This document shows, piece by piece, positions 43,467 through 63,100 of a stretch of 64,000 bases of DNA; positions within the stretch are counted from its first letter, which is position 1; every line of letters begins with the position of its first letter. The stretch comes from Verrucomicrobiaceae bacterium (GTDB lineage Bacteria; Verrucomicrobiota; Verrucomicrobiia; Verrucomicrobiales; Verrucomicrobiaceae), in contig JAEUHN010000052.1 in assembly GCA_016795365.1 (NCBI GenBank), forward strand, positions 1-64,000, in the 5' to 3' direction. The notes beneath the pieces were generated by a model. That model did not search any database and had not been told where the DNA came from. It worked only from the letters and a program-made list of their open reading frames with translations. The position numbers and the translations under genes were made by a program.

Positions 43467-45638
43467 ATGAACAAACTACTGCTCATACCTGCTGCGGTGG
43501 CTTTGTCCGCCTTCGCTCTCACGACGGCCTCTGCTGCTGATACTTCTGCTGTCTCCAAGCAAATCGATGTCCTCGTGGACAAAGGTTTGGCCAAGGAAAA
43601 GCTGAAACCCAACAAGCCCGCGAGCGACGAGACCTTCCTCCGCCGCGTGTATCTGGATGTCACCGGTCGCATCCCCACACCGGAAGAAGCGAGAGCCTTC
43701 CTCAGTTCCAAGGAAGCGAACAAACGAGCGAAACTCATCGACCAGCTCCTCGCCTCCGACGGCTACGTGTATCACTTCTACAACTACTGGGCCGACGTGC
43801 TTCGTGCGCAGAGCCAGGGCATCGGCGACAGCTCTGCCGCTCAGGAGTATCTGAACTTCATCCGCAAGTCCCTGCGCGAGAACAAGCCCTACGACCAGTT
43901 CAGCCGCGAACTCGTCGCCGCTGAAGGCACCATCTTCAAAACCGGTGCGATCGGCTACTACATGCGCGATCGCGGCATGGCGCTGGACAACTTGTCCAAC
44001 ACCGTCCGCATCTTCCTCGGCACCCGCCTTGAGTGTGCCCAGTGCCATAACCATCCCTTCGATAAATGGACGGAGATGGACTTCTACAAGATGGCCGCCT
44101 TCACCCACAACATGGCAGGCACCAACTACCGGTCCAAGAACATGGATGACACCCAGAAGCTCATCCGCGAGGACAAGACCGCTGACAAAGAAACCCAGGA
44201 CATGATGCGCCGCGCTCTGACCGACGCCTTCCGTCCGCTGCAAAGCACAGAAGTGGTGCAGAACAAAGGCACCCTGCGCCTCCCGCCTGAATACAAATAC
44301 ACGGACGCCAAGCCCAAGGATCTCGTGCAGGCTTCGGTGATCTTTGGCAAGCCTGTCGCGCTCACGAAGGAATCCAATCCCATCCAGGAATACGCCAAGT
44401 GGATGACCTCGCCGGAGAATCCTCGCTTCACCACCGTGATTGCCAATCGTCTGTGGAAGAAAGTCATGGGCCTGGGCCTGATCGAACCACTGGACGAGAT
44501 GGTCGATTCCAGCGTTCCATCCAATCCCGATCTCATGAAGTTCCTCACGCGTCAGATGGTGGCCGTGAAGTATGACATGAAGGCCTACCTCCGCATGGTG
44601 CTCAACACCCAGACCTACCAGCGCGAGAGCACCAAGGAAGACCTCCAGCCCGGCACCCCCTACTTCTTCCAGGGGCCCGTCTTCCGCCGCATGAGCGCCG
44701 AGCAGATCTGGGACTCCGTGGTGACGCTGATCAATCCCAATCCCGATGAACGCAATTGGACGCTCCGCGAGCGCGAGCGCAAGGAAGTCGAGAACCGCCG
44801 CCAGCTCGCCGAGATCTTGGATGGCACCGAGCCCGCCCTGCTCTTCGATGCTTCTAAGCGCGTTGCCGTCGCCATGAAGGAGCAGAACAAGGGCTTTGCC
44901 CAGCTGCGCAAGGATCTCGAAGAAGCCCGTGCCAAAGACGACAAAGAGAAGATCAAAGAGATCCAGCGCCAGCTCAATGACAGCCAGCGCCTGATGCGCG
45001 AGACCATCTCGAAGTGCTTCTACGAAGCCGCCAAGCAGTCCAAGAATCCCGCCCTCCTCGCGAAGCTGCAGAAGATCAGCAACGGCGCACCCATGGAGAT
45101 GGCCATGATGAACATCATGGACAGCCCTCGCGTGGACGCCAAGGACATGCCCGTTGATCCCAAGATGCAGACCGCTCTGCAGACCGAGATGAAGCTCCTC
45201 GGCATGACCAAGCCCAAGGAAGTCCAGAGCTACGAGAAGTATCGCAAGGGCCTCCATCAGACGTGGTGCCGCGCCTCCGAACTGTCATCGCCAGCACCAC
45301 GCGGGCACTTCCTCCGCGAGTTCGGCCAGAGTGATCGCGACATCATCGAAAACGCCAGCCAGGAAGCCTCCGTGCCCCAGGCACTCACGATGCTGAACGG
45401 CTCGCTCCTCACCCAGCTCAACAGCGGCTGGTCCACCCTTGCGATGAACCTGCGAAAGACCACGACTCCGCAGGAGAAAATCGACACCCTTTTCCTGAGT
45501 CTCTTCAGCCGCAAGCCCACCGCCAAGGAGCAAGCGATGCTGCTTCAGAGGCTCGATGCCGCCGCCGGATCGAAGACCATCTGGGACGACATCGTCATGG
45601 CCGCCATTAGCACGCAGCGGTTCCTCTTTATCGACTGA
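43467..45638 (+). CDS. Exported DUF1549/DUF1553 protein
   Basis: 723 residues with a signal peptide (1-23, SASAA). The DUF1549 region has [19 protein letters not shown], and a haem-like CxxCH ([15 protein letters not shown]190/C193/H194). A DUF1553 region follows ([19 protein letters not shown], near 325, and a C-terminal [14 protein letters not shown]). Such proteins are abundant in Planctomycetes and Verrucomicrobia and are usually followed directly by a DUF1501 gene; the function is unproven but a role in polysaccharide or sulfated-glycan handling is suspected. Here the partner is about 600 bases away, separated by an S23-type gene. Confidence 0.9.
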
Positions 45639-45642
45639 CGGA

Positions 45643-45672
45643 GCGAAGAGCGAAGGGCCGAGAGCGAAGAGG
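45643..45672. repeat. Low-complexity GCGAAG repeat flanking the S23 gene (left)
   Basis: GCGAAGAGCGAAGGGCCGAG and the following AGCGAAGAGG lie directly after the DUF1549 stop codon. The reverse complement of the right flank (46165-46200) reads a closely similar GAAGCGAAGGGCTAAGGG, so the S23 gene is bordered by imperfect inverted repeats. Confidence 0.5.
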
Positions 45673-45684
45673 CAAAAGCCACCT

Positions 45685-46107
45685 CTAGGTCCCGAACGAA
45701 AGCAAAGGCATCAACAACGCCAGCAACTGAGTCATGACACTGCTGAGTTTCTTCCGAAGAGCTTCGAGCATCTTGCTGAGTTCCTCCAACTCAGCCAGCC
45801 AGGGCTCGATTCGTTCGCGATCTACGAGTCCGTGGCGGGAGAAGATGAGCAGCATGTTCACGACCTCGAACAGCGAGCGACGGCTGATATTGACGAACTG
45901 TGAAAACTCACGCTTCGACGAGCTTCCCGAGCCCTCGGCAAGGTTGTTCGTGATGCTCAGCATCGCTGCGCGCAACTGCTCCGCGAACCTGAATTGCTTC
46001 TGCCGCTCCAGCTCATCGGCCAGTTGAAACACCTGCATGCTCAAGTCCGCCGATCGCCGCCAAACTTCCAGCGTCTCAAATCGAAAAGTCGTTTTCATCC
46101 CCGCCAT
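45685..46107 (-). CDS. Four-helix-bundle protein (S23/IVP family)
   Basis: 140 residues; the ATG at 46098 (residue 4) is an alternative. It has the signature of bacterial 23S-rRNA intervening-sequence/four-helix bundle proteins: FETLEVWRRSADLSMQVF, QFRFAEQLRAAMLSITNNLAEGSG and the FSQFVNISRRSLFEVVNMLLI helix. Relatives are small pentameric proteins that bind nucleic acid, some as Avd factors near diversity-generating retroelements; no reverse transcriptase is present here. It is antisense between two genes normally adjacent, so it looks like an insertion. Confidence 0.85.
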   Translation of the reverse strand: MAGMKTTFRFETLEVWRRSADLSMQVFQLADELERQKQFRFAEQLRAAMLSITNNLAEGSGSSSKREFSQFVNISRRSLFEVVNMLLIFSRHGLVDRERIEPWLAELEELSKMLEALRKKLSSVMTQLLALLMPLLSFGT

Positions 46108-46168
46108 TTCATCAGCCTCTCTGGTCTGTCACAATCCCAAAGAACACTTCCAACCCACAACTCTGCTT

Positions 46169-46191
46169 CCTCTTAGCTCTACGCCCTTAGC
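46169..46191. repeat. 23-bp direct repeat, copy 1
   Basis: CCTCTTAGCTCTACGCCCTTAGC occurs here and again, base for base, at 46239-46261, 70 bases apart. The second copy overlaps the first codons of the DUF1501 gene. Confidence 0.85.
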
Positions 46192-46232
46192 CCTTCGCTT
46201 CTCAACCTCCAACCTCCAACTTCCAACAACCC

Positions 46233-47558
46233 ATGAACCCTCTTAGCTCTACGCCCTTAGCTCTCCGCTCCAACGATCTCAGCCGTCGCAGCCTCCTGGC
46301 CACGACTGCGAAGTCACTCCTCGGGGTCGGCTTGATGCCCTCCATGGAGCATCTCTTCAGCAGCAAAGCCTTCGCGGTGGGTGAAGGCTCGGCCACGCAG
46401 AAGCAGGTGGCCACGGCACGCAACGTCATCTTCCTCTACATGAGCGGTGGTCAGAGCCACCTCGACACCTGGGATGTGAAGCCCGACAACAAGGAGGTCA
46501 TGGGACCCACGAAGGCGATCAAGACCTCGGCCGATGGCGTGCAGATCAGTGAATATCTGCCACGTCTCGCGAAGCAGGGCCATCACCTGTGCCTCCTCAA
46601 TGCCGTGGCGACCAACACCGCCGCGCACGAGCAGGCTAACTACTTCATGCACACGAGCTTCGGGCTGCGCAGCACGATCAAGCACCCAGGCCTCGGTGCC
46701 TGGCTGAGCTTCTTCCAGGGCTCCGGCAACCCAGCCCTGCCAGCCTATGTGTATGTGGGCAATGACAGCCGTCATCCCGGCGCAGGCTTTTTCGCCAAGA
46801 AGCATGGTCCGCTCATGGTGAACAATCCCGAGGCAGGTCTGCAAAATGTGAAGCCGCAGAATGGCGTCACGGAAGATCGATTCGCCCTTCGTCGTGACAT
46901 CGCGCAGGCGCTCGATGCCGAGTTCGTCAGCACGCATCCGAATCGCAACGTGAAGGCCTACTCCGACATGTATGACGACGCTGTTCGTCTCATGCGCAGC
47001 GAGGACCTCACCGCCTTCGATCTCACCAAGGAACCCGAAGAACTGCGCAAGGCCTACGGCAAGGAAAGCTTTGGTCAGGGCTGCCTGCTTGCTCGTCGTC
47101 TCGTCGAGCATGGAGTGCGCTTTGTCGAAGTCTCGCTCGGAAGCTGGGACACCCATGTGGCCAACTTCATCAGCACGCCCAAACTCTGCGACACGCTCGA
47201 CCAGGCCATGGCCACGCTACTCAGCGATCTCGAGTCACGCGGCTTGCTGGAGAGCACCATGGTCGTCGTGGCTTCCGAGTTCGGACGCACGCCGAAGATC
47301 AATCAAAACCAGGGCCGCGACCATTATCCCGTCTTCTCCTGCGTGCTCGCTGGTGGCGGCATCCAGGGCGGACAAAAGTATGGCAGCACGACCAAGGACG
47401 GCTCCGGTGTGGAGTCCGGCAAGGTCTCGCCCGTCGATATCAACGCCACGATTGGTTATGCCCTCGGCCTTCCCCTCGACCAGGTGATTTACTCGCCCAC
47501 TAAGCGACCCTTCACCGTCGCCGACAAAGGCCAGCCGCTGGTGCATCTGTTCTCGTAG
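46233..47558 (+). CDS. Exported DUF1501 protein
   Basis: 441 residues. The N-terminus carries a twin-arginine signal (LSRRSLLATTAKSLLGVG). The sulfatase-like alkaline-phosphatase-fold domain has FLYMSGGQSHLDTWD at about 70 and ends with ASEFGRTPKINQN and GRDHYPVF near 350. DUF1501 proteins accompany DUF1549/1553 proteins in Planctomycetes and Verrucomicrobia. The first ten codons (MNPLSSTPLALR) derive from the second copy of the 23-bp repeat, so the present start is an unusual graft; no other in-frame ATG precedes the Tat signal. Confidence 0.9.
   Translation: MNPLSSTPLALRSNDLSRRSLLATTAKSLLGVGLMPSMEHLFSSKAFAVGEGSATQKQVATARNVIFLYMSGGQSHLDTWDVKPDNKEVMGPTKAIKTSADGVQISEYLPRLAKQGHHLCLLNAVATNTAAHEQANYFMHTSFGLRSTIKHPGLGAWLSFFQGSGNPALPAYVYVGNDSRHPGAGFFAKKHGPLMVNNPEAGLQNVKPQNGVTEDRFALRRDIAQALDAEFVSTHPNRNVKAYSDMYDDAVRLMRSEDLTAFDLTKEPEELRKAYGKESFGQGCLLARRLVEHGVRFVEVSLGSWDTHVANFISTPKLCDTLDQAMATLLSDLESRGLLESTMVVVASEFGRTPKINQNQGRDHYPVFSCVLAGGGIQGGQKYGSTTKDGSGVESGKVSPVDINATIGYALGLPLDQVIYSPTKRPFTVADKGQPLVHLFS
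46239..46261. repeat. 23-bp direct repeat, copy 2, within DUF1501 start
   Basis: Second copy of CCTCTTAGCTCTACGCCCTTAGC; it begins at codon 3 of the DUF1501 frame and encodes LSSTPLA. See copy 1 at 46169. Confidence 0.85.
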
Positions 47559-47580
47559 AGGAACTCGCACCGATCAATCA

Positions 47581-47615
47581 CAGCACCATGGTCCATGCGA
47601 TCATGGTGCTGTTTT
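47581..47615 (+). terminator. Rho-independent terminator after the DUF1501 gene
   Basis: CAGCACCATG (47581-47590) pairs perfectly with CATGGTGCTG (47602-47611), followed by TTTTG and more T. It lies 22 bases after the stop and also just beyond the 3' end of the convergent NHL-like gene. Confidence 0.85.
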
Positions 47616-47627
47616 GTTTGGAGCTGA

Positions 47628-48683
47628 TCAGCCCACCTTCTTCAATAGCGTCACACGGCCCACAGGCACCCACTCGGTGACGAGGATGTCGCCGTTGGCG
47701 AGGATCATGGCGTCGTGTGGCGTGATGAACTTGCCGTCGATGAACTTCTCGCGCGGCTCCATGCGCAGCGGCCAGGGTTTCTTCTGGTTGGGCTCCTTGC
47801 CATCGCCGAGGCTGGTGATGAGGTTGTAATCCTTGTCGAAGAGATGCACGACGCTGTAAAGATCGGGGCAGACCATGAGGTCGCCGCGAACGTGGAAGTG
47901 GCAGGGCAGACGAAGCTTGCCGGGCACCTTGATCGTGCGCTCGTGCTGGCCGTCGAGGTTGAGGATTTGCATGCGGCCATTGCCGCGATCGGCAACGACG
48001 AGCTTGGCTGGTGAGTGGCGCGTATCGACCCACAGACCGTGCGTGTTCTTGAACTGACCATCCGCGCTGCCGGGGCTGCCGATGATGCCTTTGAAGTTCG
48101 CGTCCTTGTCGTAGCGCAGGATGTAGGCGGAGCCGTAGCCATCAGCGACGTAGAAGTCGCCATCGGGATGGAAGGCGATGTTGGTGCAGTTCCATTTGAT
48201 CGGCTCCTTGCCCGCATACGGCGGCGCTTCCTTTGGGTAGCCTTTCTGCCACAGCACTTTGCCGTCGAGCGTGGTCTTGGTGAAGGTCTGGTGCGCGTTG
48301 TCGCAGTGGTAGATGAACTCTGTGCCGCCCTCGTCGCGAATGTCGAGCCCATGCGCGCCGCCGACCGTGCCGCCTGCGAACTGCTCGCCCCACGAAGTGA
48401 TGAACTTGCCTTCCTGATCGAAGACCACGATCGCGTCCTTCTTCACGCTCGCGGGATTGACCGTGTGGCCGATGTAGATGCGGCCTTGCGCGTCCTGAGC
48501 AACGCCATGCGTGTCGCCCCACAGCAGGCCCTGCGGTGGCGTAAGCCAGTCGTGATAGACTTCATAACGATGGCCGTCGATGCCGAGCACGGGGCGCTTG
48601 CTCCCGGCTTTGTCTTGAGCGTGCAGAATGTTAAAGGCACCGAACGCAGCGGTGGTCTGGAGGAAGTGGCGGCGGGTGGACAT
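47628..48683 (-). CDS. Exported NHL-repeat beta-propeller protein
   Basis: 351 residues from the ATG at 48683 with a twin-arginine-like signal (STRRHFLQTTAAFGAFN). The body is a six-bladed propeller with NHL-type strands: GVAQDAQGRIYIGHT, GGAHGLDIRDEGG, NIAFHPDGDFYVADGYG and GHGLWVD-like KNTHGLWVD. A sulfatase gene lies 13 bases upstream on the same strand, so they form a two-gene unit. The propeller may be a lyase or binding protein for the same substrate; no catalytic residue is assigned. Confidence 0.82.
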   Translation of the reverse strand: MSTRRHFLQTTAAFGAFNILHAQDKAGSKRPVLGIDGHRYEVYHDWLTPPQGLLWGDTHGVAQDAQGRIYIGHTVNPASVKKDAIVVFDQEGKFITSWGEQFAGGTVGGAHGLDIRDEGGTEFIYHCDNAHQTFTKTTLDGKVLWQKGYPKEAPPYAGKEPIKWNCTNIAFHPDGDFYVADGYGSAYILRYDKDANFKGIIGSPGSADGQFKNTHGLWVDTRHSPAKLVVADRGNGRMQILNLDGQHERTIKVPGKLRLPCHFHVRGDLMVCPDLYSVVHLFDKDYNLITSLGDGKEPNQKKPWPLRMEPREKFIDGKFITPHDAMILANGDILVTEWVPVGRVTLLKKVG

Positions 48684-48696
48684 GGCGATCTGTCGG

Positions 48697-50241
48697 TTAG
48701 GGTTTGAAGCCATCGCGGATGGTGCCGTCGTGGCCGATGAGGGGCTGCGGGTTTTGCACGCGACCGAGTTCGCGAACGCCGGGGCCTTTGTCGTTGATGC
48801 CGAGGTCGGACTTTGCCTGTTCGACGAGGGCTTGCAGCTTCGCGACGATCTCAGGGCGATCAGCGGCGACGTTCTTGGATTCGCCGATGTCGTCGGCAAG
48901 GTTGTAGAGCTGCGGCTTGCCATCGTTTGCGGCTTGTTGCTTGGCTTTGGCGGCCTTGCCCTTCGCGGGCGCACGCTTGTCGGCGGCGCTGATGTGCAGC
49001 TTCCACGGTCCACTGCGGACGGCTTGCAACGTGAGGCCGCTGTAGAAGTAGAAGAGGTCGGCGTGGGGCGACTTCGCGCCTGCCTTGCCGAGGAGGATTG
49101 GCGACACATCACCTCCGTCGAGTTTGCTCTTGGGCAGATCAGCACCTGCGAGCGCGGCGCACGTTGGCAGCACGTCGATCATGCCCGTGATCTCATCGGT
49201 CGCGGTGCCTGCGGGCACGTTGCCGGGCCACCACGCAATGGTCGGCACACGCATGCCGCCTTCCCAGGTGGTGCCTTTGGTGCCGCGCAGCGGAGCGTTC
49301 ACGGAGCGTGCGGTGCCGCCGTTGTCGGAGGTGAAGATGACCAGCGTTTTGTTGTCGAGCTTGAGTTCGCGCAGCACATCGAGCACCTGGCCCACGCTCC
49401 AATCAACTTCTTCCACCCAGTCACCGAAGAGGCCGTTCTTCGACCTCGTGTGGAAGGCCTTGCCAGGATACAAAGGGAAGTGCACGGCGGTGTGTGGGAG
49501 GTAGAGAAAGAAGGACTTGTCCTTGCTGCCGCGAATGAACTTCACTGCCTCGGTCGTGTAGCGCTCAACGATGCTCTGCTGGCCGTCCTGGCCGACGCGC
49601 TCGATGACTTTGGCGTCGCGAAGCAACGGCAGCGGCGGTTGATTGGCACCTTTGAGCCCCGTCTCGTCATTGCCGAAGATCTTGGGATCGACGCCCTTGG
49701 AGGCGACGTCTTTAACGGCGGGCAGAGGCTGGCCGAGATCGCTCTTCGAGCCTTCCGAGGCCATGCCCATGTCATTGGAATACGGCAGGCCGTAGTAGTG
49801 ATCGAAGCCCTGGCTGGTGGGCAGGAACTCGGACTGATCACCCAGGTGCCACTTGCCCACGCACATCGTCGAGTAGCCCGCGCCTTTGAGCACTTCGGCG
49901 ACCGTTTGCTCCTTCGGATTCAAGCCCACCGCAGCACCGGGGAAGAGCACGCTCGGGATCGGTAGCACGCGCTTCGGGTAGCAGCCGGTCATCAGCGCAG
50001 AGCGCGAAGGCGAGCACACGGGCGCGGCGTAGTGGCACTTCAACTTCATGCCTTCCGCTGCCATGCGGTCGAGATTGGGCGTGCGGTTCAGCGTGGACCC
50101 GAACGGACCGATGTCCGCGTAGCCGAGGTCGTCGATGTTGATGACGACGAAGTTTGGTTTGGGCGCTTCAGCGAGAAGCAGCGACGAAGACAGTGCCAGT
50201 GCGAGACAGAGACGATGAAGGAGCATCGTCCGAGAACGCAT
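48697..50241 (-). CDS. Exported sulfatase
   Basis: 514 residues (a start at 50226 is equally possible) with a signal peptide (about 1-24). Alkaline-phosphatase superfamily sulfatase: metal ligands in INIDDLGYADIG, the formylglycine site CSPSR with Cys76 (APVCSPSRSALMTG), the KWHLG motif, and TSDNGG in the C-terminal part. The Cys must be converted to formylglycine by an FGE or anaerobic maturase outside this window. Likely substrates are sulfated glycans, as usual in this phylum. It precedes the NHL-like gene. Confidence 0.94.
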   Translation of the reverse strand: MRSRTMLLHRLCLALALSSSLLLAEAPKPNFVVINIDDLGYADIGPFGSTLNRTPNLDRMAAEGMKLKCHYAAPVCSPSRSALMTGCYPKRVLPIPSVLFPGAAVGLNPKEQTVAEVLKGAGYSTMCVGKWHLGDQSEFLPTSQGFDHYYGLPYSNDMGMASEGSKSDLGQPLPAVKDVASKGVDPKIFGNDETGLKGANQPPLPLLRDAKVIERVGQDGQQSIVERYTTEAVKFIRGSKDKSFFLYLPHTAVHFPLYPGKAFHTRSKNGLFGDWVEEVDWSVGQVLDVLRELKLDNKTLVIFTSDNGGTARSVNAPLRGTKGTTWEGGMRVPTIAWWPGNVPAGTATDEITGMIDVLPTCAALAGADLPKSKLDGGDVSPILLGKAGAKSPHADLFYFYSGLTLQAVRSGPWKLHISAADKRAPAKGKAAKAKQQAANDGKPQLYNLADDIGESKNVAADRPEIVAKLQALVEQAKSDLGINDKGPGVRELGRVQNPQPLIGHDGTIRDGFKP

Positions 50242-52466: not shown

Positions 52467-55400
52467 TTGCACCTCATGAAATGGGTCTGTTGTCTTTCGC
52501 TCTTGGTGGTTTCCGCGGTCTGCGGCGCTGATGTGTCTCTGTTCGATCAGAAGAATCTCGCAGCCTGGTGCATCGTGCCATTCGACAAGGCGAAGCGTGG
52601 CCCCGAGGAGCGGGCCGCCATGCTGGAGAACCTGGGCTTCACGAAGTTCGTCTATGACTATCGCAAGGAGCACATCCCCACCTTTGATGCGGAACTCGAA
52701 GCATTGAAAAAACATCATGTGGAACTGACCGGCTGGTGGTTTCCCACTCAGCTCAATGATGAGGCAAAGATGACGCTCGAACTGTTCAAGCGCCACGGTG
52801 TGAAGCCCGTGCTCTGGATCAGCGGTGGAGGTGAACGACCGAAGACCAACGATGAACGCGAGGCGAGGCTGGCTGCTGAGGTGGCGCGCGTCAGGCCCAT
52901 CGCCGAGGCGGCAGAGACGCAGGGCCTTAAGGTGGGGCTCTACAACCACGGTGGCTGGTTCGGCGAACCCGAGACTCAGGTGGAGATCATCAAGCGGCTG
53001 GCAATGCCTAACGTGGGAATGGTGTATAACTTGCACCATGGTCACGACCATGTCCGCCGGCTGCGGCAGATCCTGGAGATGATCAAGCCGCATCTCCTGT
53101 GCTTCAATCTGAACGGCATGATGGAGGACGGTGAGAAGCGGGGGATGAAGATCGTGCCGCTCGCTCAGGGCGAGCAGGACATCGAGATCATGAAGATCAT
53201 CGCGGCGAGTGGTTACACGGGACCGATGGGCATTCTCAATCACACCGATGAGGACGCGGAGGCGCGCCTGAGCGACAACTTGGATGGCTTGCGCTGGCTG
53301 GTGAAAACGATCAAAGGCGAGCCTGCAGGGGACAAGCCCAAGCCCCGATCATGGACGAGGCCGCCGGAGAAGCAGACGATGAGCAAGCCTGTGGGACCGA
53401 CAGGCGTGAAGTCGATCAACGACGCCTTTGGCAAAGCCTTGAGCGGCCCATTTCAAGCAGGCGAAAAGGAGGCCTATCGCACCCGACCCTTCACCATCGA
53501 GTGCTGGGCGAAGCTCCATGGCAAGGCGCAATTCAACATCCTCGTCGCTCGCGATGCGAAGTCATCCGCTGATCATTGGGAACTCTACACCCATGCGAAG
53601 TCTGGTGAGCTGGCGCTCTATCAGCCTGGGCGCGGTGGTGACGTGAGATCGAAAACGGATGTGTGCGATGGTCAGTGGCATCACCTCGCTGCCGTGGTCG
53701 AGGAGGCGCGAGTGCGTTTGTTCGTGGATGCGAAGCTGGTGCATGACGCGGTGGTGAAGCCTATGCAGGGCAAGGTGCAGCCTGGTGCGCTCATGATTGG
53801 TGGATTGGTGGAAGGTGGCCTGGGCTGCGATGGTGTGATTGATGAGGTGCGATTGAGCCACGGTGCGCGTGAGATGGGAACGCTGGCGAAAGCACCGATA
53901 AAGAGTGAATCGCAGACGATCGAGATCTGGAACTTTGATGCGCTGGGTGAAGTCGGTGCAGCCAAGCCCGCACCCAAGCCTGCCTCGTTCTTTTATCAGT
54001 TCGATCCGCTGAAGCCCGATCAATGGCCTCATCGCGACCATCCCATCAACCACTACCGGCTTTACGACTTCTACACGAAGCAAGCACTCGCCTTCAGAGG
54101 GCAGTCGCTGCCTCCCTTGCTGATGGCTTATCCGGGGCTGGAGGGCGGGCTCTTCGGCCACTGGGGCGTGGCGGATGACGAGTTCTGGCGCGATGATCGC
54201 TGGGCCAAGGCCGACCGCAGGCCCTTGCAGTGCGGCATCTTGCACACGCCGGGGCGGAAGTTTCCGAAGGCTGTGGTGATGCAGCTCGGCGATCAGGAGG
54301 AGCTGACCACGTTCTTTGATCCTGAGACGCTGTCGTTTCCCATGGCCACGGCAGGTAGCTTTGTTGGCATGGGCAGCACGCGCCATGGCATGATGGACGG
54401 CTTGAAGTTCAATGCGCCCATCACCACGCGCATGGAGCAGCCGAAGTCGTCGGAGCCCTTCGTTTATCATGGTTTCTACCGGCATGGAAAACGCGTGGTC
54501 TTCAGCTACACACGCGGGGGCAAGGAGGTGCTCGATTCGGCCTGGGCAGATCACGCCCAGTTCAAGCGCGAGACGTGTCCGAAGGGTGAAGAACCCCTGA
54601 CATCCATGACCAAGGGTGGACCCGCGCAGTGGCCGGAATGGTTGGAGACGGTTGGCAGTTTGGGGACGGCCAAGCCTTACGCCCTCGACACCCTGACGCT
54701 GCCGAAGCATCCCACGGGTCTGCCTTGGTTTGTCACTGGCTGCGACTTCTTCAGCGATGGCACCGGTGCGATCTGCACGATGACGGGCGATGTGTGGCTC
54801 GTGCGCGGCATTGATGAAGGACTGGGAAAGCTGCGCTGGAAACGCTTTGCCGCCGGGCTCGCGCAACCGCTCGGCATGCGCATCGTGCAGGACCAGATCG
54901 TGGTGCAGGGGCGCGATCAGATCACGCGGCTCGTGGATCTGAATCATGACGACGAGGCTGATTTCTACGAGTGTGTGAACAATGCGCAGATCACATCACC
55001 GAGCGGTCACGACTTCATCACTGGCTGCGAGTTTGACGGCACGTTTTACTACTTCGCGAGCGGCAATCAGGGCGTCTGTCGTGTGAAGCCGGGTGGCGAA
55101 GTGGAAGTGCTGGCCACGGGCTTTCGCAATCCGAACGGGCTTGGGCTGGCTCGCGATGGCACGGTGACGACCACCGTGCAGGAAGGGGATTGGACGCCGA
55201 CCTCGATGATCCATCAAATCAAGCACGGTGGCTTCTATGGTGCGGGTGGTCCCAAGCCGGGCCAGGAGGTGCTGCCACCGATGTGCTATCTGCCGCGTGG
55301 CCTGGACAATTCCAGCGGAGGCCAATGCTTCACCGAGACGACGAAGTGGGGACCGTTAGGTGGTCAGCTCATCCACTTTTCACCTGGTTCGGCGAATCAC

Positions 55401-56420
55401 TTCCTGATCCTTCGACAGACCATCGGCGATGTGACGCAAGGTGCGGCGGTGTGCCTGCCGGGCGACTTCTTGTCCGGTGCACAGCAAGGCCGAATCAATC
55501 CGAAGGACGGGCAGCTTTACGTCACGGGCATGTATGGCTGGGGCTGCTGGGGCACGGAGGATGGATGCTTTCAACGGGTGCGATACACGGGTGGTGCGGC
55601 GCACTTGCCAGTGGCATTCGCCGTTCATGAAAATGGTCTGCTGATTAAGTTCAGCGACAAGCTCGGCAGCGTGGCGGGCGATGTGAGGCAGCACTTCGCG
55701 CAGTGCTGGAACTATCGCTACAGCGCAGCGTATGGTTCGCCCGAGTTCAGCGTGAGTCATCCCGATGTAGAGGGGCATGATTCGCTGGCGATCAAGGCCG
55801 CGCACATCCTCGACGATGGCTCGTCCTTGTTCCTGGAGATCCCGCTGATCTCGCCCTGCCATCAAGTGCATGTGCATGTCTCGACGGTCGATGATCGCTA
55901 CCAAGACCTGTTCATCACCGCCCACAAGCTGGCTCCTGCGTTCACGGCCTTCCCTGGCTACCAGGCAACGCCGAAGCAATACATCGCGGTGGAGCAGTCG
56001 GGTGATGCCATGAAGTCCAAGCCCAATCCCTGGGCCGGTGGTGCAAGGGGACGTGCGCTGAACATCGCTGCGGCATTGGGCCTGAAGTTTGCTCAGGCGG
56101 AGTTGCGAGCCAAGGCTGGCGAACGCTTGTCGCTGACCTTCTCGAATCCCGACGCCGTGCCGCACAACTGGGTGCTCATCGCTCCTGGCAAGCTGGCCGC
56201 CATTGGCGATGCGACGAACAAGATGATCACCGACCCGAATGGCCTGGCCCGTCACTATGTGCCCGAAAGCCCCGACGTGCTGGCCTACACGGACATGACC
56301 AACCCTGGCACCCAGTTCACCATTCATTTCGATGCTCCGAAGTCGCCCGGACGCTATCCTTACCTCTGCACCTTTCCTGGTCACTGGGTGGTGATGAATG
56401 GAGTGCTGGTGGTGGAGTGA
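52467..56420 (+). CDS. Giant exported multidomain protein with azurin-like C-terminus
   Basis: 1317 residues with a signal peptide (1-20). Domains in order: a xylose-isomerase-like TIM barrel (about 25-295, NLGFTKFVYDYR and GLYNHGGWFG); a LamG/concanavalin-like domain (about 340-470, TIECWAKL, WHHLAAVV, GVIDEVRLS); a region with DUF6797-like look (about 510-680); a glucose/sorbosone-dehydrogenase-like propeller (about 690-1080, GMRIVQDQIVVQGRDQITRL); and a cupredoxin domain. The last domain has the azurin ligand set: His1233 (PHNW), Cys1301, His1306 and Met1310 (CTFPGHWVVM), spaced C-x4-H-x3-M as in azurin. The gene stands alone between lysA and the kinase-like gene. A redox role on a saccharide or sugar alcohol is inference. 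Confidence 0.85.
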   Translation: MHLMKWVCCLSLLVVSAVCGADVSLFDQKNLAAWCIVPFDKAKRGPEERAAMLENLGFTKFVYDYRKEHIPTFDAELEALKKHHVELTGWWFPTQLNDEAKMTLELFKRHGVKPVLWISGGGERPKTNDEREARLAAEVARVRPIAEAAETQGLKVGLYNHGGWFGEPETQVEIIKRLAMPNVGMVYNLHHGHDHVRRLRQILEMIKPHLLCFNLNGMMEDGEKRGMKIVPLAQGEQDIEIMKIIAASGYTGPMGILNHTDEDAEARLSDNLDGLRWLVKTIKGEPAGDKPKPRSWTRPPEKQTMSKPVGPTGVKSINDAFGKALSGPFQAGEKEAYRTRPFTIECWAKLHGKAQFNILVARDAKSSADHWELYTHAKSGELALYQPGRGGDVRSKTDVCDGQWHHLAAVVEEARVRLFVDAKLVHDAVVKPMQGKVQPGALMIGGLVEGGLGCDGVIDEVRLSHGAREMGTLAKAPIKSESQTIEIWNFDALGEVGAAKPAPKPASFFYQFDPLKPDQWPHRDHPINHYRLYDFYTKQALAFRGQSLPPLLMAYPGLEGGLFGHWGVADDEFWRDDRWAKADRRPLQCGILHTPGRKFPKAVVMQLGDQEELTTFFDPETLSFPMATAGSFVGMGSTRHGMMDGLKFNAPITTRMEQPKSSEPFVYHGFYRHGKRVVFSYTRGGKEVLDSAWADHAQFKRETCPKGEEPLTSMTKGGPAQWPEWLETVGSLGTAKPYALDTLTLPKHPTGLPWFVTGCDFFSDGTGAICTMTGDVWLVRGIDEGLGKLRWKRFAAGLAQPLGMRIVQDQIVVQGRDQITRLVDLNHDDEADFYECVNNAQITSPSGHDFITGCEFDGTFYYFASGNQGVCRVKPGGEVEVLATGFRNPNGLGLARDGTVTTTVQEGDWTPTSMIHQIKHGGFYGAGGPKPGQEVLPPMCYLPRGLDNSSGGQCFTETTKWGPLGGQLIHFSPGSANHFLILRQTIGDVTQGAAVCLPGDFLSGAQQGRINPKDGQLYVTGMYGWGCWGTEDGCFQRVRYTGGAAHLPVAFAVHENGLLIKFSDKLGSVAGDVRQHFAQCWNYRYSAAYGSPEFSVSHPDVEGHDSLAIKAAHILDDGSSLFLEIPLISPCHQVHVHVSTVDDRYQDLFITAHKLAPAFTAFPGYQATPKQYIAVEQSGDAMKSKPNPWAGGARGRALNIAAALGLKFAQAELRAKAGERLSLTFSNPDAVPHNWVLIAPGKLAAIGDATNKMITDPNGLARHYVPESPDVLAYTDMTNPGTQFTIHFDAPKSPGRYPYLCTFPGHWVVMNGVLVVE

Positions 56421-56582: not shown

Positions 56583-59159
56583 ATGAGTTTGCCCCAAATC
56601 GCAGGCCACGAACTGCAAGACTTGATCGGCGGAGGGAGCGTGGGTGCGGTTTACCGGGCCACCGGATCAGGGGGCGGGGCGCTGGCGGTGAAGGTCTTCA
56701 GTTCGATGTCCATCAATCGCAAAGGCCTGGCCTCGACGCTGCATGGGCTGCAAAAGATGCCGGTGCATCGCGGACTGCTGCCGGTGCTGGGTTTTGACTT
56801 GGATCGCAGTCCCTACTATGTCATCACGCCGCTCATCGGGGTGGCAACCAAGGATGCACAGGGGCGGAGGTTCTGGCAGTGCCCCACGCTGGAGGCCATG
56901 TGCGGACGTGTGCCGCCGGACACGGCCTGGCGCTACATTTACGAGATCGCGGATGCCCTCGCTGCAGCGCACAAGCATGGTGTGGCGCACGGGAATCTGA
57001 AGTGCAGCAATGTGCTGGTGACCGACGATGAGGATGGGGCGACGCGGCTGGCGGACTTCGGTCAGGGATACGTGGGTGGTGTGCACCACATGGAATTGCG
57101 CGATCACTTTATGTATCTCGCTCCCGAGCAGGCGGTGCAGCCCGATGGCTTTTTTGCGGGCATGGGTGCGTCGTGGGATGTGTATAGTTTTGGTGTGGTG
57201 GCGTATCGTTTGCTCACCGGTCAGTTCCCTCGCGGAGAGCAGGCATGGGCTCAGGAGTCTGCCACGCGTCAGCAAAAGATGGCGCAGGGGCTGAATTACG
57301 AGATCAACAGTCTCGCTCTGCTGCGTGCGATCCAGGCGCAGCCGACCATCACATGGCCCAATGCCGCCGGCACTCCGTGGGACGAGCGGCGGAGGCAGAT
57401 TGTGGTGCGCGCTCTCGATTTCGATCCTGAGGTGCGATGGCGCGACATGCGTGAGATTGCGCATGAGTTCGAAACGCTGGAGGCGGACTTCATTCTCGCG
57501 GAGTCGCGTGCTGAGACGGAGTTTGAGAAGAAGCGGCAGGCAGGCAAGATCGCGCGTCTGCACTTGCTGTGGATGAGCCTCGCCGGAGCGCTCGGTGCAG
57601 CCGGAGTGTATGGGGTGACGACGCAGTTGCGCCTCAACAACGCCCAGGAAACCATCGTCAACAATGAGGCGGCGGCGAAGAGGGAGATCGACACTCGTGA
57701 TGGCAAGATCGGCACGCTGACCAAGGACCTGAGCGATGCGCGTGCAGCGCGTGAGGTGAGCGATCTGAACCTGCAGCGTGCGCAGGGCATGGTGGATCAG
57801 CTTGCGACGCAGCTGCTGCAACTGCCCACGGGCAACAACCTGGAAGTCGCCTTCTCGAAGCAGCAACTCAGCGACACGGCTGGTTTCCTTCAAGCGGGTC
57901 TCCCTGATCTCGAAAAACAGCAGGCTCTCGCTCCCGAGCGTGCGCGGGCCTATGGCAACCTGGGCATGATCGCGCTGAAGCAGCGCAACTCGGTCGAGGC
58001 GGTCAAGTATCTGGACAAGGCGCGCAACGAACTGCACGCCTTGATCGCGCGCGAGCCCAACAGCAAGCATCTCAACCTTTACCAGCAGTGGCTTGGTCGG
58101 TTCAGCATGCTGCTGGCCAAAGTTCGCGCGTCCCGTGGCGATGGGGAGACGGCTCTGTCGCTGTTGAAGGAGGCCACGTCGAATCTGGATCCTGGCTTGA
58201 AGTCGAACCCACGGGATCGCAATGCTCGCTTCGAGGCAGCGCAGGCATGGTTCGATTACGGCTCACGGTGCCGTGCCGAAGGCGACGTGAAGGAAAGTGA
58301 CGCCGCCTTGCAAAAGGTGACGGCGGCCCTGGATGAGCAGGCGATTGGAGGTCCCTTGCTCCCGGAGGAGCAGTTCCTGCTGGCTCGTGGTGATCTCGAA
58401 CGCGGTTTGGCGCTCAAGGATGGCAACAAGCTCGAGGAGGCCGCAGCCACGCTCCTGAGCGGTGTCGAGAAGATGGCCTCACTCGTCGCTGGCAGCGCGC
58501 CTCGCAATCAGGATCAGGCGATCATCTTGGCGGAAGGTTACACGGAGCTCGCGGACATCCTCGGTCGGCACTTCAGCTCCAAAGAAGCTACTGAAGCCCA
58601 CTTTGAAGCGATCAAGGTGCTGCTCGAACTGGTGCGCCTGGAACCCGATTGGAAGGAAGCCAAATACCTTCTGGCGCGCAATTACGCTGCGGTCGCCAAA
58701 CTGGATCGCAACGTGGGCAATGGTGCCGAAGCGATGCGCAAGATGAATGATGCGCTCCAGGCGGTGAACGAGGTAGTGGCCGATGACACGGAGAACCGCC
58801 AGTATCTGTTCCAGCAGGCCAAGCTGCGCGGTGAGCTGGCCGAAATGATGGGTGACGGAGGCGAGCCAAAGAAAGCGCTGCCTGTGATCTCACAAGCGCT
58901 CGAGAATTTGCAAAACCTCCTCCAACAACTGCCGAACGACAAACTGACTTCCGTCCGTCGTGAATGGGAAGTCCAGCTCGCCATCATGCATGGCGTCAAG
59001 GGACAGATCTGTGAGGCAGCCAAGCAGAAAGAAGATGCTCGAAAGAGCTTCAACCTCGCGCAGAAGCAATGGGAGCGGCTCATCGCGCTTGGAGACAGTG
59101 GTGAGGTTGTTCAGAACGGACTTACTTGGGTGAAGAACCGGCTTCAAAAGCTGAAGTAG
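56583..59159 (+). CDS. Ser/Thr kinase-like protein with TPR domain, catalytic Asp missing
   Basis: 858 residues. The kinase domain (about 5-300) has a glycine loop (IGGGSVGAVYRA), the lysine of ALAVKVF (Lys37), and DFG at 158-160. The catalytic loop reads AHGNLKCSN: the HRD Asp is Asn138 and the Arg is Gly, so it is probably a pseudokinase or of very low activity. A transmembrane helix follows near 325-345 (LLWMSLAGALGAAGVYG). The C-terminal 480 residues are TPR-type helices in the periplasm. It may be a scaffold or receptor. It starts 162 bases after the cupredoxin fusion and ends at the bidirectional terminator. Confidence 0.82.
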   Translation: MSLPQIAGHELQDLIGGGSVGAVYRATGSGGGALAVKVFSSMSINRKGLASTLHGLQKMPVHRGLLPVLGFDLDRSPYYVITPLIGVATKDAQGRRFWQCPTLEAMCGRVPPDTAWRYIYEIADALAAAHKHGVAHGNLKCSNVLVTDDEDGATRLADFGQGYVGGVHHMELRDHFMYLAPEQAVQPDGFFAGMGASWDVYSFGVVAYRLLTGQFPRGEQAWAQESATRQQKMAQGLNYEINSLALLRAIQAQPTITWPNAAGTPWDERRRQIVVRALDFDPEVRWRDMREIAHEFETLEADFILAESRAETEFEKKRQAGKIARLHLLWMSLAGALGAAGVYGVTTQLRLNNAQETIVNNEAAAKREIDTRDGKIGTLTKDLSDARAAREVSDLNLQRAQGMVDQLATQLLQLPTGNNLEVAFSKQQLSDTAGFLQAGLPDLEKQQALAPERARAYGNLGMIALKQRNSVEAVKYLDKARNELHALIAREPNSKHLNLYQQWLGRFSMLLAKVRASRGDGETALSLLKEATSNLDPGLKSNPRDRNARFEAAQAWFDYGSRCRAEGDVKESDAALQKVTAALDEQAIGGPLLPEEQFLLARGDLERGLALKDGNKLEEAAATLLSGVEKMASLVAGSAPRNQDQAIILAEGYTELADILGRHFSSKEATEAHFEAIKVLLELVRLEPDWKEAKYLLARNYAAVAKLDRNVGNGAEAMRKMNDALQAVNEVVADDTENRQYLFQQAKLRGELAEMMGDGGEPKKALPVISQALENLQNLLQQLPNDKLTSVRREWEVQLAIMHGVKGQICEAAKQKEDARKSFNLAQKQWERLIALGDSGEVVQNGLTWVKNRLQKLK

Positions 59160-59272: not shown

Positions 59273-61297
59273 TCAGTAGTAGTCCTTCTTCAGCATCTTG
59301 CGCTTCATGGAGCCGACGCGCTCATGCAGCCCTGCAATGTCGATCGTCGCCTGGGTGAGGATGTCAGCCTTGTCAGGATACTGGGGAGTCATGGCTTCCA
59401 CTTGTGCCTCCAGTTGGTTGATCGCGATTTTCATCTCTGTCAGCTTCTTGGAGTCCTCTTCGGTCGCGCGGTTCTCTTCGATGGTGCTGTTAATCACTTC
59501 GCACTGGCGGGCAAGGTAAGCGACAGAGCCCGGCACCGCGTCTGGTCCGCCAGCAAGCCTGCCGGTCTGATCGACCTGGGGCTTCTGTGGCATGAGGTGA
59601 GCAGGACGCTGGGGCACCACGGACTCGGGCTCGGCTGGCAGACCACCGCCTTTCGGGTCGATGAGCCGTGGCGTGATGAAGAGCATCAGGTTCTTGTGGT
59701 TCTTTTCGCGGCTCTTGCTTTTGAAAGCATAGCCGAGGATCGGAATACGTCCGAGAAGAGGAACGCCGCTGTCGGTCGTTTTTTCTTTTGCCTCATCCAG
59801 GCCGCCGATGGCTACAGTGTATCCGTCGTTCACCTCGACTGGCGCATTATAGACACGGGAGGTGGCGACGGGGTATTGATTGCCGGAGATCAGCTGACTG
59901 CCAATGATCGAGGAGACGGTGACCTTGATGTTCAGAAGCACGCGATCATTTTCCATCTTCTTGGGAAGAATGTTCAGCACGGTGCCGATCGGCAGGTAGG
60001 TGATGCTTTGCGAGGTGGCGGCACCACCGCCGCTTGAGATGGCCGAGGACCCATCGAGCACGGGTTGATTGACCACGCTGCGGATGACAACTTCACGGTT
60101 GTTGAGCGTCACCATGCGTGGGTAGGAAACCGTCTTGGTGTCCTGATCGTTGAGCATCGCGCGAAGCTTGAAGCTAAGATCTTGTGATGTGAGCACTGCG
60201 CCCATGGGCCAGAAGGTGCTGGAAGCGATGTCGTTCAGATTGCTCATCGTAAACAACTGCGCGACGTCGCCACGCAGACCACCGGACTGATTGGGAATCT
60301 GGTCGTATTCGATGTTCCAACGCTTGTTAGTGTCGTCGTAGCTCGTGCGGGTGGTTTGACGGAAGGTGCCGTTTTGCCCCAGTGTGCCGCTCCAGTCGAT
60401 GCCCAGTTCCTTCGAAGGATCGTGGCTGGACTCGATGAACTTCACTTCGATGGCGATGAGCGGTTGCTGCTTGTCGGCTGCCGCGAGGTAACCTTCCACC
60501 CAGAGGTGCTGCAGGCGTGTCGCAACGACGTAGAGCGTGTTGGAATCAGATTTCCAGATGACTTTGGGCTGATGCGCCTGGGAGAGTTGATTGGAGTTGT
60601 TCAGACCTCCTGCGGCACCTGCACCTTGACCGCTGGCACCTGCCTGAGCTGCGGCGAATCCACCCGCCGATGCCCCACCTGTGGCACCGTCTTCTGCCTC
60701 CGGTGGCAGGTCGAGGATTGAACGGATGTCATTGATCAATTCGCTGCGCTTTACCTTAAAGGTTTCTTTGGCTCCCTGGAGGTCGACCGAGGCCGACTGG
60801 ATGGTGCCAGCCCCCGAACCGCCACCGCCCCCGGTTCCCTCGGTGATGTTCTCGACACGCTCCATGGCATTGTAGCGAATGGAGTAGCTGCGGCCTTCCA
60901 GTTCGCGATCATCGGCTGGGCGGATATACCACATGCCGTTGTCTTCAGGGATCAATGAGAGGCCGTTGGCTTTGCACAAGGTCTCCAGCACACTAAATGG
61001 ACTGGCGTTGATAGAGAAAGTGATCACACGTCCCGCTTCCGGGCTGTCTTCGGGCAGCGAGATGAAGGACAACTTTGCATCCGTCGCAAGGAACCGAAGC
61101 ACGTCTGCCAAGTTAGATTTGGAGAAATCATACTGCTGTGCGGGAGCGTTACGAAGCTCCTGAGCCTTGGCTTCATACCGAGGAGGAAGCTGCCGGAATG
61201 ACTGCCCGATCGTCCCGTCGGACTGAGCATGTAGTCCGACCGAGCCCGCGGCCAACAGGCAGGCGGAGAGGTAGAGGGAGGTGAGTTTGATCTTCAT
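59273..61297 (-). CDS. Secretin (GspD/PilQ-family) outer-membrane channel
   Basis: 674 residues with a signal peptide (1-24, LHAQ). N-terminal ring-forming domains (about 50-250, NLADVLRFLATDAKLSFISLP and a Gly-rich linker) are followed by the secretin core (about 280-560), with the signature VPLLGRIPILGYAFKSKS near 530. A coiled/charged tail follows (about 570-674). It forms the outer-membrane ring of a type II secretion or type IV pilus machine. The pilin-like gene and a PilT/GspE ATPase lie divergently next to it; no GspC/PilP-like gene is seen. Confidence 0.93.
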   Translation of the reverse strand: MKIKLTSLYLSACLLAAGSVGLHAQSDGTIGQSFRQLPPRYEAKAQELRNAPAQQYDFSKSNLADVLRFLATDAKLSFISLPEDSPEAGRVITFSINASPFSVLETLCKANGLSLIPEDNGMWYIRPADDRELEGRSYSIRYNAMERVENITEGTGGGGGSGAGTIQSASVDLQGAKETFKVKRSELINDIRSILDLPPEAEDGATGGASAGGFAAAQAGASGQGAGAAGGLNNSNQLSQAHQPKVIWKSDSNTLYVVATRLQHLWVEGYLAAADKQQPLIAIEVKFIESSHDPSKELGIDWSGTLGQNGTFRQTTRTSYDDTNKRWNIEYDQIPNQSGGLRGDVAQLFTMSNLNDIASSTFWPMGAVLTSQDLSFKLRAMLNDQDTKTVSYPRMVTLNNREVVIRSVVNQPVLDGSSAISSGGGAATSQSITYLPIGTVLNILPKKMENDRVLLNIKVTVSSIIGSQLISGNQYPVATSRVYNAPVEVNDGYTVAIGGLDEAKEKTTDSGVPLLGRIPILGYAFKSKSREKNHKNLMLFITPRLIDPKGGGLPAEPESVVPQRPAHLMPQKPQVDQTGRLAGGPDAVPGSVAYLARQCEVINSTIEENRATEEDSKKLTEMKIAINQLEAQVEAMTPQYPDKADILTQATIDIAGLHERVGSMKRKMLKKDYY

Positions 61298-61516: not shown

Positions 61517-61522
61517 TTGGCC

Positions 61523-63100
61523 GTGAAGACGTCCCTCCATCACTTTACTCCTCGCCCGCCAGCCTCCAAAAAGGCTGCGTTTACGCTGCTGGAGATTTTT
61601 GTGACGATTGCCCTGATCGGAGTGATTACTGCCGTTGCGGTATCGCAGATGGGGTCTGGCATGCCCCGTGCGGTCGTAGACACCAGATTATCCGCAGATG
61701 TAGCCCATCTTAACCAGATGGTGGCTGTCTATCTTGCCGATGGAGGTTCACTGGATGGCATCACCTCCGAACAAGGGGTCCTTGATAAACTCAAACGCGC
61801 GCGCTCGTCGGCAGAATCCAAGACCAACGTCGGCGTGACCACTGGGCGACTCGTAGATGTTCGACTCCGCGCCACCCTGTCTGCAAATACCTCCGACACA
61901 CGCGCCGTTTGGAACTCAACGAGCAAACGGTTCGAGATCGGCACCACGGGCGGAGTGAACAGCTTCACGCTGGATGACAGTCTTGCGGAGGCCAGTTTCC
62001 CCCTCGACACCCGCACGGCGAGCCGAATTAAATACAACTCCTCGACCGGCTGGGTCTGGGGCACGTCAGGAGCCGATCCGAACATCGCCTACAACTCGCC
62101 GAATACCGCAAACCAAGTCAATCAGGGGAACAACTTCGATCCTACGATCGATCTTCCATCGGGAACAACCACGGGCACTGGGACAGGAACTGGCACAGGG
62201 ACGGGAACTGGCACTGGCACCGGGACGGGAACTGGCACAGGAACTGGACCTGGCAGCACGGCGACCACACTCCCTACGCCAACGATCAATCCCATCGGCG
62301 GCACTTTCAGCGCTTCGTCTTTCCCTGCCAGTGTGACTATCAACAGCAACGGCGCACCAGGTGGCGCATCGAAACTCATCTACCGGAAAAACGGCAGCGG
62401 CTGGATGGACTACATCGGGCCTGTAGCGCTGGCATCGGGTGATCGAATCGAGGCCATGAATCTGTCGCTCAACGCGATGGCCTTCTCAGACAGCGCTGTG
62501 AACGGCCAGGAATACTACAGCCTGGTCAATGGCTTCACAGGGTCCGCCGCAGGCACCTGGACTGACGTGGCCGGCGGCCCCACACTGGACTACGATATCA
62601 CGCCTGGAAGTCCCACTACGTCCGTGTCACATGGCAACACTCAGCTGGATCTGGGCAATGGTGAGTTCCTCGATGCGGGTGTGGCGAACGTGCTGTCTTA
62701 CACCAAAAACGACTTCACCAACATCCAGCCAAACGTCTCGTTCAAGCTCGGCAATCTCAATCTGCTGAACGGCACCACGTTCTACGACAGCGAAGCATCA
62801 AGCGTGAAATTGAGGATCAACCTCAACCTCACCAATCCGCCTCTCAACACGACCATGGATGTCGTGTTCAACCTCGTGAACACAGAGAACTCCACTGATC
62901 GTCTGGCGAGCGCTGACATCGTTGAGATCGCGACGCCGCAGCCGACCTCCTTCACCATCGACAACGTCACCTACACTCTGCAGCTCAACTGGGTCACTCT
63001 GGATCCGGGGGCGGGTGTTGTTCAGGGCAATCAATTCCTGGTCTTCGAAGGTGCCGCCGCCCAGGCGGAGCTCCGGGCCACACTTTACTCCAATCACTAA
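61523..63100 (+). CDS. Type IV pilin-like/prepilin-type exported protein
   Basis: About 525 residues from GTG 61523 (TTG 61517 is an alternative). A prepilin signal KKAAFTLLEIFVTIALIGVIT lies at about 17-37, with A before F rather than the usual G, and E at +5 as in pilins. A large C-terminal beta-rich region follows, with a GT/TG dipeptide array (about 13 repeats) near 217-246 and Gly/Ser/Asn strands after. The large size makes it a pseudopilin-like or adhesin-like subunit rather than a plain pilin. It precedes the PilT-like ATPase by 20 bases. Confidence 0.8.
   Translation: MKTSLHHFTPRPPASKKAAFTLLEIFVTIALIGVITAVAVSQMGSGMPRAVVDTRLSADVAHLNQMVAVYLADGGSLDGITSEQGVLDKLKRARSSAESKTNVGVTTGRLVDVRLRATLSANTSDTRAVWNSTSKRFEIGTTGGVNSFTLDDSLAEASFPLDTRTASRIKYNSSTGWVWGTSGADPNIAYNSPNTANQVNQGNNFDPTIDLPSGTTTGTGTGTGTGTGTGTGTGTGTGTGTGPGSTATTLPTPTINPIGGTFSASSFPASVTINSNGAPGGASKLIYRKNGSGWMDYIGPVALASGDRIEAMNLSLNAMAFSDSAVNGQEYYSLVNGFTGSAAGTWTDVAGGPTLDYDITPGSPTTSVSHGNTQLDLGNGEFLDAGVANVLSYTKNDFTNIQPNVSFKLGNLNLLNGTTFYDSEASSVKLRINLNLTNPPLNTTMDVVFNLVNTENSTDRLASADIVEIATPQPTSFTIDNVTYTLQLNWVTLDPGAGVVQGNQFLVFEGAAAQAELRATLYSNH
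62172..62253 (+). repeat. Hexanucleotide repeat encoding GT dipeptides
   Basis: About 13 imperfect copies of a 6-base unit such as GGCACT/GGGACA/GGAACT, inside the pilin-like gene, encode Gly-Thr repeats. Such tracts vary in length by slippage in units of two residues without breaking the frame. Confidence 0.8.

Follow-up and report, generated by a model that had tools for sequence, protein, structure and literature searches.

A TIM barrel-LamG-propeller-cupredoxin chain in a Verrucomicrobiaceae bacterium: a candidate exported oxidoreductase with a built-in copper centre

The stretch of DNA analysed here (the window: 64,000 nucleotides, positions 1 to 64,000 of contig JAEUHN010000052.1 from the Verrucomicrobiaceae bacterium assembly GCA_016795365.1) encodes at 52467-56420, on the forward strand, a protein in which a triosephosphate isomerase (TIM) barrel, a LamG domain, a propeller and an azurin-type cupredoxin follow one another on a single chain. 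Counted from the TTG at 52467 the open reading frame (ORF) has 1317 amino acids (aa); the more likely translation start is the ATG at 52476, because the relative L080, 96% identical to the window protein in the best segment, keeps this ATG but reads TTT at the TTG site. Judged by its signal-peptide-like N-terminus, MKWVCCLSLLVVSAVCGADV, the chain would be exported. Pfam families were matched over their cut-offs along the whole protein, namely the AP_endonuc_2 TIM barrel (PF01261; aa 98-273, 3.3e-10, 40.5 bits against 31.1), Laminin_G_3 (aa 338-469, 1.6e-17), DUF6797 (aa 644-690, 1.1e-7) and Copper-bind (PF00127; aa 1205-1317, 4.5e-9, 37.1 bits against 21.2). A preliminary description made from the sequence had given the same order, and every domain it named was found again; it had missed the DUF6797 segment between LamG and propeller, and the start codon that it used is corrected here to the ATG (Table 1).

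Two AlphaFold models and the structure searches made with them concur with Pfam on this order. The model of aa 20-499 (predicted local distance difference test, pLDDT, 92.2; predicted template modelling score, pTM, 0.65) shows eight strands alternating with helices, that is, a TIM barrel, and the model of aa 500-1317 (pLDDT 90.7, pTM 0.89), for which 44 relatives were used, has both a propeller and a cupredoxin fold in the expected segments, as modelling and profile searches had been proposed to establish. With the latter model Foldseek returned a putative glucose dehydrogenase (2ism, 1.0e-11) as the first match, auracyanin (1qhq, 4.4e-10) as the third and a pyrroloquinoline quinone (PQQ) sugar dehydrogenase (3a9g, 1.5e-9) as the seventh. 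Searched against PDB sequences, the stretch aa 524-1198, which spans DUF6797, propeller and linker, drew nothing but designed propellers, with E 0.21 and 0.56. The cupredoxin superposes closely on 2aan (Z 19.3, root-mean-square deviation (rmsd) 1.5, 118 residues aligned) and is 31-36% identical to auracyanins, and the best 60 of 105 matches in a profile search of A2 were all cupredoxins; the NCBIfam azurin equivalog TIGR02695 is not reached by the window protein (33.9 bits, with 105.1 required). The four copper ligands listed in the preliminary description, His1233, Cys1301, His1306 and Met1310, are exactly placed, and all four are identical in the 81 aligned proteins, which are the window protein and 80 relatives chosen by similarity. 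No CxxCH motif is present in the window protein, as read from its sequence, or in L080.

Table 1 Coordinates of the gene and its features in the window
Feature	Position	Strand	Remarks
Whole gene	52476..56420	+	1314 aa from ATG; residue numbers here follow the TTG start
Signal-peptide-like N-terminus MKWVCCLSLLVVSAVCGA	52476..52529	+	Read directly from sequence; similar in L080
Xylose-isomerase-like TIM barrel with its usual metal ligands replaced	52530..53336	+	Pfam PF01261, model, structure matches
LamG / concanavalin-like domain	53478..53873	+	Pfam PF13385, 1.6e-17
DUF6797-containing segment	53964..54671	+	Pfam match at 54396-54536; family common to paralogs
Propeller	54672..55598	+	About 237-545 in the aa 500-1317 model; fold related to glucose/sorbosone dehydrogenases (GSDH) and to NHL propellers
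Acidic loop DLNHDDEADFYEC	54936..54974	+	D824 114/114, E830 113/114, D832 114/114 propellers
His848	55008..55010	+	Aligns with His of the YliI NHFGG motif, low confidence
Arg887-Asn888	55125..55130	+	Aligns with RN of the YliI RNPQG motif (hhalign)
Linker beta domain	55599..56045	+	Conserved motifs W(N)Y and YGS
Auracyanin/azurin-type cupredoxin	56046..56417	+	PDB auracyanin B 2.6e-14; 2aan structural match
Cu ligand His1233	56163..56165	+	81/81
Cu ligand Cys1301	56367..56369	+	81/81
Cu ligand His1306	56382..56384	+	81/81
Cu ligand Met1310	56394..56396	+	81/81

How widely this architecture occurs, a question raised in the preliminary description, was answered from two samples. Among 288 genomes of the phylum, the window genome included, 25 match the stretch aa 524-1317 at E <= 1e-20, a count that takes in the window's own match and matches to the cupredoxin only; since at most three candidates were scored per genome, distant paralogs are under-sampled. 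From the 60 loci fetched at the match places of this phylum sample, window excluded, 55 propeller ORFs were obtained, including L049 and L191, which were counted as propellers and have stops inside the aligned stretch. A contig scan confirmed at least 520 relatives among 587 pattern stretches, and the best 80 by similarity are referred to below as the named loci; because of this choice the set is skewed to full-length cupredoxin forms. The named loci come, judged by record titles, from Verrucomicrobiota and Planctomycetota, include records not titled as metagenome-assembled genomes (MAGs), such as Brevifollis gellanilyticus and Rhodopirellula maiorica, and have a shortest ORF of 868 aa. The cupredoxin is on the propeller ORF in all 80, which is not a rate, since the ranking selects for it, and the same ORF holds a TIM barrel in 71 and a LamG match in 64, some relatives being without such a match.

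The evidence that carries our interpretation is the variety of electron carriers found on related propellers. In the phylum sample 39 of the 55 propellers have a fused carrier or a CxxCH tail: a cupredoxin in 11, one C-terminal CxxCH in 16, five C-terminal CxxCH in three and an N-terminal cytochrome in nine, all nine of the latter with a Pfam cytochrome match at E <= 0.001. Nothing of the kind is fused to the other 16, and in five of these a CxxCH ORF lies on the same strand at a distance of no more than 500 bp. The neighbours at L050, L052 and L066 align for the greater part of their length with the fused five-CxxCH tails, to which they are homologous; the main alignments show 32-36% identity across 561-595 columns. 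The ORF beside L199 contains five CxxCH. An exchange of carrier is seen at the ortholog L041, where barrel, DUF6797 and propeller are kept (the propeller being 49% identical) and one C-terminal CxxCH domain stands in place of the cupredoxin. A quick maximum-likelihood tree was made from 69 propellers: that of the window, 53 from the phylum sample's 55 and 15 from the 80 named loci. In it L041 falls, together with the pair L047/L051, where CxxCH likewise replaces the cupredoxin, in a 29-row clade with a Shimodaira-Hasegawa-like approximate likelihood ratio test (SH-aLRT) value of 100, and the remaining 26 rows of this clade all have a cupredoxin. L194 (417 aa, with a TGA inside the match) and L198 (483 aa, apparently partial) were left out of the tree, and L060 and L200 sit on long branches, with their placement unsure.

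Haem and copper also occur together. In 17 of the 80 named loci the chain has a cytochrome c domain as well as a C-terminal cupredoxin, and all 17 are labelled as planctomycetes, one of them being a MAG labelled Kuenenia, a doubtful label; the others include Laterigemmans, Roseiconus, Stieleria and the like, which we take to be planctomycetes. The CxxCH domain of these proteins precedes DUF6797, with the barrel ahead of it in the same ORF in 14 of the 17. Pfam Cytochrom_C was matched at E <= 0.01 by every insert, the CxxCH and a Met-Pro are invariant, and a profile of the 17 inserts matches 7zs0, a 'Hypothetical (Diheme) protein', at 3e-25. The chief ground for taking the propeller as a probable redox enzyme is that it recurs with a carrier, and with different ones; electron transfer to the built-in copper centre is likely. 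The earlier proposal that electrons from substrate oxidation pass to the type I copper gains comparative backing from this replacement of cupredoxin by cytochrome c and from the co-occurrence of the two.

The ORF L054:4001-7387 (-) has a TIGR02604 propeller (180 bits, over the cut-off), a GDSL lipase and HEAT repeats, no CxxCH and a cupredoxin end, again with copper in place of haem, here in a second family of propellers. In L060:1850-4447 (-) the order is reversed: the cupredoxin is N-terminal, and the propeller after it matches GSDH weakly.

We therefore favour as probable, though far from settled, an account in which a carbohydrate- or alcohol-oxidising propeller hands electrons to the fused copper. 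The exported oxidoreductase would oxidise a carbohydrate or similar alcohol in its propeller; the electrons would leave one at a time for the type 1 copper centre at the C-terminus and move from there to periplasmic carriers, and LamG and the sugar-isomerase-like barrel would probably serve to bind the sugar, to place it, or to work on the product of its oxidation. Several positions of the propeller would suit catalysis. Arg887 is invariant in the 114 propellers aligned, and His848 is found in 81 of 81 members of the ortholog group and 108 of 114 of the wider set. A profile of these 114 sequences aligns with Escherichia coli YliI and its relatives at 76.3% probability (hhalign, E 2.2e-5, local part), bringing both residues onto YliI motifs, His848 with low confidence (Table 1), and a narrow propeller profile aligns with GSDH at 46.7% in local mode, global mode being uninformative. 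The His and Arg-Asn motifs serve near PQQ in GSDH-type enzymes, and the acidic loop DLNHDDEADFYEC presumably resembles a Ca site. PQQ is a possible cofactor, which would then probably come from outside by uptake, or else the cofactor is another.

A number of results weigh against this account. The window protein matches neither GSDH (PF07995, curated cut-off 25 bits) nor TIGR02604 (cut-off 122.2 bits) up to E 0.1, and NHL and designed propellers fit its propeller about as well as sugar dehydrogenases do: a second structural comparison gave Z 20.6 (rmsd 3.0, 243 aligned) with the PknD/Pizza NHL propeller (1rwl), Z 19.2 (rmsd 2.9, 273 aligned) with 2ism and Z 19.0 (rmsd 3.2, 288 aligned) with 3a9g. 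With such equal matches the fold alone is no proof of a dehydrogenase. The preliminary description had called the propeller sugar-dehydrogenase-like, and this holds for the fold; the structural comparison does not tell sugar dehydrogenases and NHL-type propellers apart, with Z 19 against 20, and the GSDH profile is not matched. As to the cofactor, PqqE was not over the cut-off in the window genome, and as none of 14 control genomes was either, the search is without a positive control; a search for PqqC found nothing, but neither did it in the controls, and it carries no weight. As scored, 11 of the 55 propellers have no carrier either fused or adjacent; one of them, L068, is the paralog in the window genome itself. 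A contig end truncates L068, and the relative nearest to it on the tree, L067, has an N-terminal cytochrome. The neighbour counted at L194 may belong to L194 itself, as the first portion of one interrupted gene, a doubt that arises from the TGA inside the L194 match. Finally, for 15 of the 19 C-terminal CxxCH tails the motif was the sole basis for scoring. Among the four that were scanned with profiles, L046 and L069 match cytochrome families, L041 matches a Pfam cbb3-type cytochrome at 0.0012, under the cut-off, and the tail of L051 has no Pfam match at 0.01.

These points raise the alternative that the propeller is a non-redox binding or hydrolysis domain, like those of NHL proteins or SGL lactonases, with the cupredoxin a separate module, serving as a shuttle for another enzyme or as a copper reservoir. 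With Z 20 for PknD/Pizza NHL propellers and Z 17-18 for lactonases, such domains are indeed about level with the sugar dehydrogenases, and paralogs give SGL matches, weak and under the cut-off. We nevertheless consider this explanation unlikely, as members of the same family have been joined repeatedly to N- or C-terminal cytochrome c, five-CxxCH tails or cupredoxin, and the His and Arg-Asn are conserved. It would also be conceivable that electrons flow the other way, the copper taking them from a donor and passing them to the propeller or barrel for a reaction that is reductive or activates oxygen. Nitrous oxide reductase, in which a propeller is followed by a cupredoxin, recurs in the Foldseek list; kinship with it was set aside, the matches being poor as wholes (whole-chain template modelling score 0.11-0.22, rmsd 23-28 Å). 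Moreover the window cupredoxin has one Cys, against the two of a CuA site, and the propeller has only two near-invariant His, against the seven that make up the CuZ ligand set, so that reverse flow appears distinctly improbable. That the fusion is an artefact of assembly or a frameshift deserves next to no weight, since the similarity-ranked named loci all have the cupredoxin on the propeller ORF, mostly with the barrel as well, and include records not titled as MAGs.

In structure the N-terminal barrel comes nearest to UlaE and further isomerases and epimerases of sugars (Z about 20-21), with the 3-keto-glucoside 4-epimerase YcjR (Z 20.0) among the matches listed; the best 50 matches span only about 1.6 Z. 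Barrels of the PF01261 type have Glu, Asp, His and Glu metal ligands at their strand ends. In the alignment with 3wqo the positions of Glu, Asp and Glu are occupied by Y159, N188 and L257, and a His is missing from the end of strand 7, which reads LLCFNLNGM. The substitutes are themselves kept, Y159 in 68 of 68 and N188 in 68 of 69 aligned barrels, and Y159, N160, H161, H191, H193 and N214 are almost invariant, suggesting a pocket that is retained but non-canonical. At L133:5538-6458 and L143:5514-6407 (+) the barrel is a gene of its own, 174-195 bp upstream of the propeller-cupredoxin gene and on the same strand, and from this split form a functional link between barrel and propeller can be deduced.

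As for the substrate, the distant paralogs L072:3882-7163 (+) and L193:4278-8210 (-) encode cytochrome c, DUF6797, propeller and 3-keto-disaccharide hydrolase on one chain, an indirect hint that the propeller may act in glycoside oxidation. The hydrolase family, PF06439, is fused to these two of the 55 propellers, which count as one event since they are near-copies, and it adjoins the propeller as a gene on the same strand in two more (L046 and L053). A profile of the two fused hydrolase domains found no match at E <= 1e-5 in the 80 named loci or the window, and one further weak match (L043, 1.2e-6) in the 60 phylum-sample loci. DUF1080 is not exclusively a 3-keto family, as an endo-xanthanase/lichenase carries the same domain (PMC9007349). 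TIM-barrel eliminases of 3-keto-glycosides are known, and those described use Mn2+ (PMC10628242). The window barrel, with its replaced metal ligands, could not bind Mn2+ in the usual manner. A bolder version of the favoured account would make the chain a one-piece oxidative glycoside-cleaving unit, in which the propeller oxidises C3 to give a 3-keto sugar, the tethered copper takes the electrons and the barrel processes the keto sugar, the planctomycete forms running haem c and copper in series. We regard this version as doubtful, and C3 oxidation by the propeller is offered as a hypothesis only. If the bolder version were true, DUF6797 propellers would make up a large class, so far overlooked, of sugar oxidoreductases that Planctomycetota-Verrucomicrobiota-Chlamydiota (PVC) bacteria export, with built-in wires that can be exchanged.

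The genes around the fusion suggest no pathway. In the window the fusion gene is preceded by a lysA-like gene of opposite orientation and followed, after 162 bp, by a kinase-like gene of its own orientation; the latter (56583-59159, +) encodes a protein-kinase domain with weak TPR-like repeats. The neighbour clusters that recur most at the 80 named loci, with the name of each cluster taken from a single representative, are an AraC-type regulator (18 loci), an amidohydrolase (16), DUF6807 (12), DUF1501 (12) and a sulfatase (10), again with no clear pathway. The gene of the DUF6807 cluster (for example L134:842-1870 (+)) is on the same strand as the fusion gene in 12 of its 12 loci and within 300 bp of it in nine. 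Further away in the window, 43467-50241 holds a PSCyt2/PSD1 gene, a DUF1501 gene and a sulfatase, a set typical of PVC bacteria, and 59273-61297 (-) encodes a secretin, adjoined by an ORF (61517-63100) with a prepilin-type N-terminus under the cut-off.

The preliminary description knew of no described enzyme with this domain order, and in the open papers of PubMed Central (PMC), which leave subscription papers mostly uncovered, we likewise recognised no description of the propeller-cupredoxin architecture, judged by titles and the starts of abstracts; the same literature yielded no paper on DUF6797 and none pairing Prosthecobacter with azurin. A 2021 survey of azurin genes dropped all hits longer than 200 aa; the one planctomycete hit it had was put down, along with the few actinobacterial ones, to contamination or misannotation (PMC8779525). 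Fused forms such as those of the 80 named loci were therefore outside its view. If the favoured account is right, it would give DUF6797 a function, and the presence of copper, haem or both on related propellers would amount to a natural domain-exchange experiment, by which the electron-transfer hypothesis becomes testable on one purified protein. A sugar-oxidising propeller with a built-in copper acceptor would also be of interest to biosensor work.

Each part of the chain has known counterparts. UlaE, YcjR and D-tagatose 3-epimerase have the fold of the window barrel, which differs from them in its signal-peptide-like start and its replaced metal ligands. GSDH enzymes (2ism, 3a9g, YliI) share the propeller fold and, as far as the profile alignment with YliI goes, the Arg-Asn motif, whereas the window protein is not matched by their curated profile, has extra domains and carries its electron carrier fused. 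The PVC-type heme-binding CxxCH proteins of TIGR02604 likewise have a propeller and a carrier on the chain and are matched weakly by paralogs of the window propeller; the window protein itself does not match that model and has copper ligands instead of CxxCH. Auracyanin (1qhq, 2aan, 6kol) and azurin have the same cupredoxin fold and His-Cys-His-Met set, but are small separate carriers, whereas the window cupredoxin is the terminal domain of a 1300-residue chain. The dehydrogenase of the lactose 3-dehydrogenase LacABC is not known to be related to the window propeller. Together with a DUF1080 3-keto hydrolase, LacABC performs periplasmic glycoside oxidation and 3-keto processing and may be a functional analogue (PMC9007349), although it consists of separate proteins, unlike the window chain. 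The nearest described design that we found is the fungal PQQ pyranose dehydrogenase CcPDH (AA12), which has a sugar dehydrogenase, a fused electron-transfer domain and a carbohydrate-binding module on one extracellular chain, a plan that the window protein would share, and for which internal electron transfer is reported (PMC4332668). CcPDH has three domains, with a CBM1 and no TIM barrel, and its carrier is an N-terminal cytochrome b, whereas that of the window protein is a C-terminal type 1 copper domain; PQQ has been shown in CcPDH and is only a possible cofactor of the window protein.

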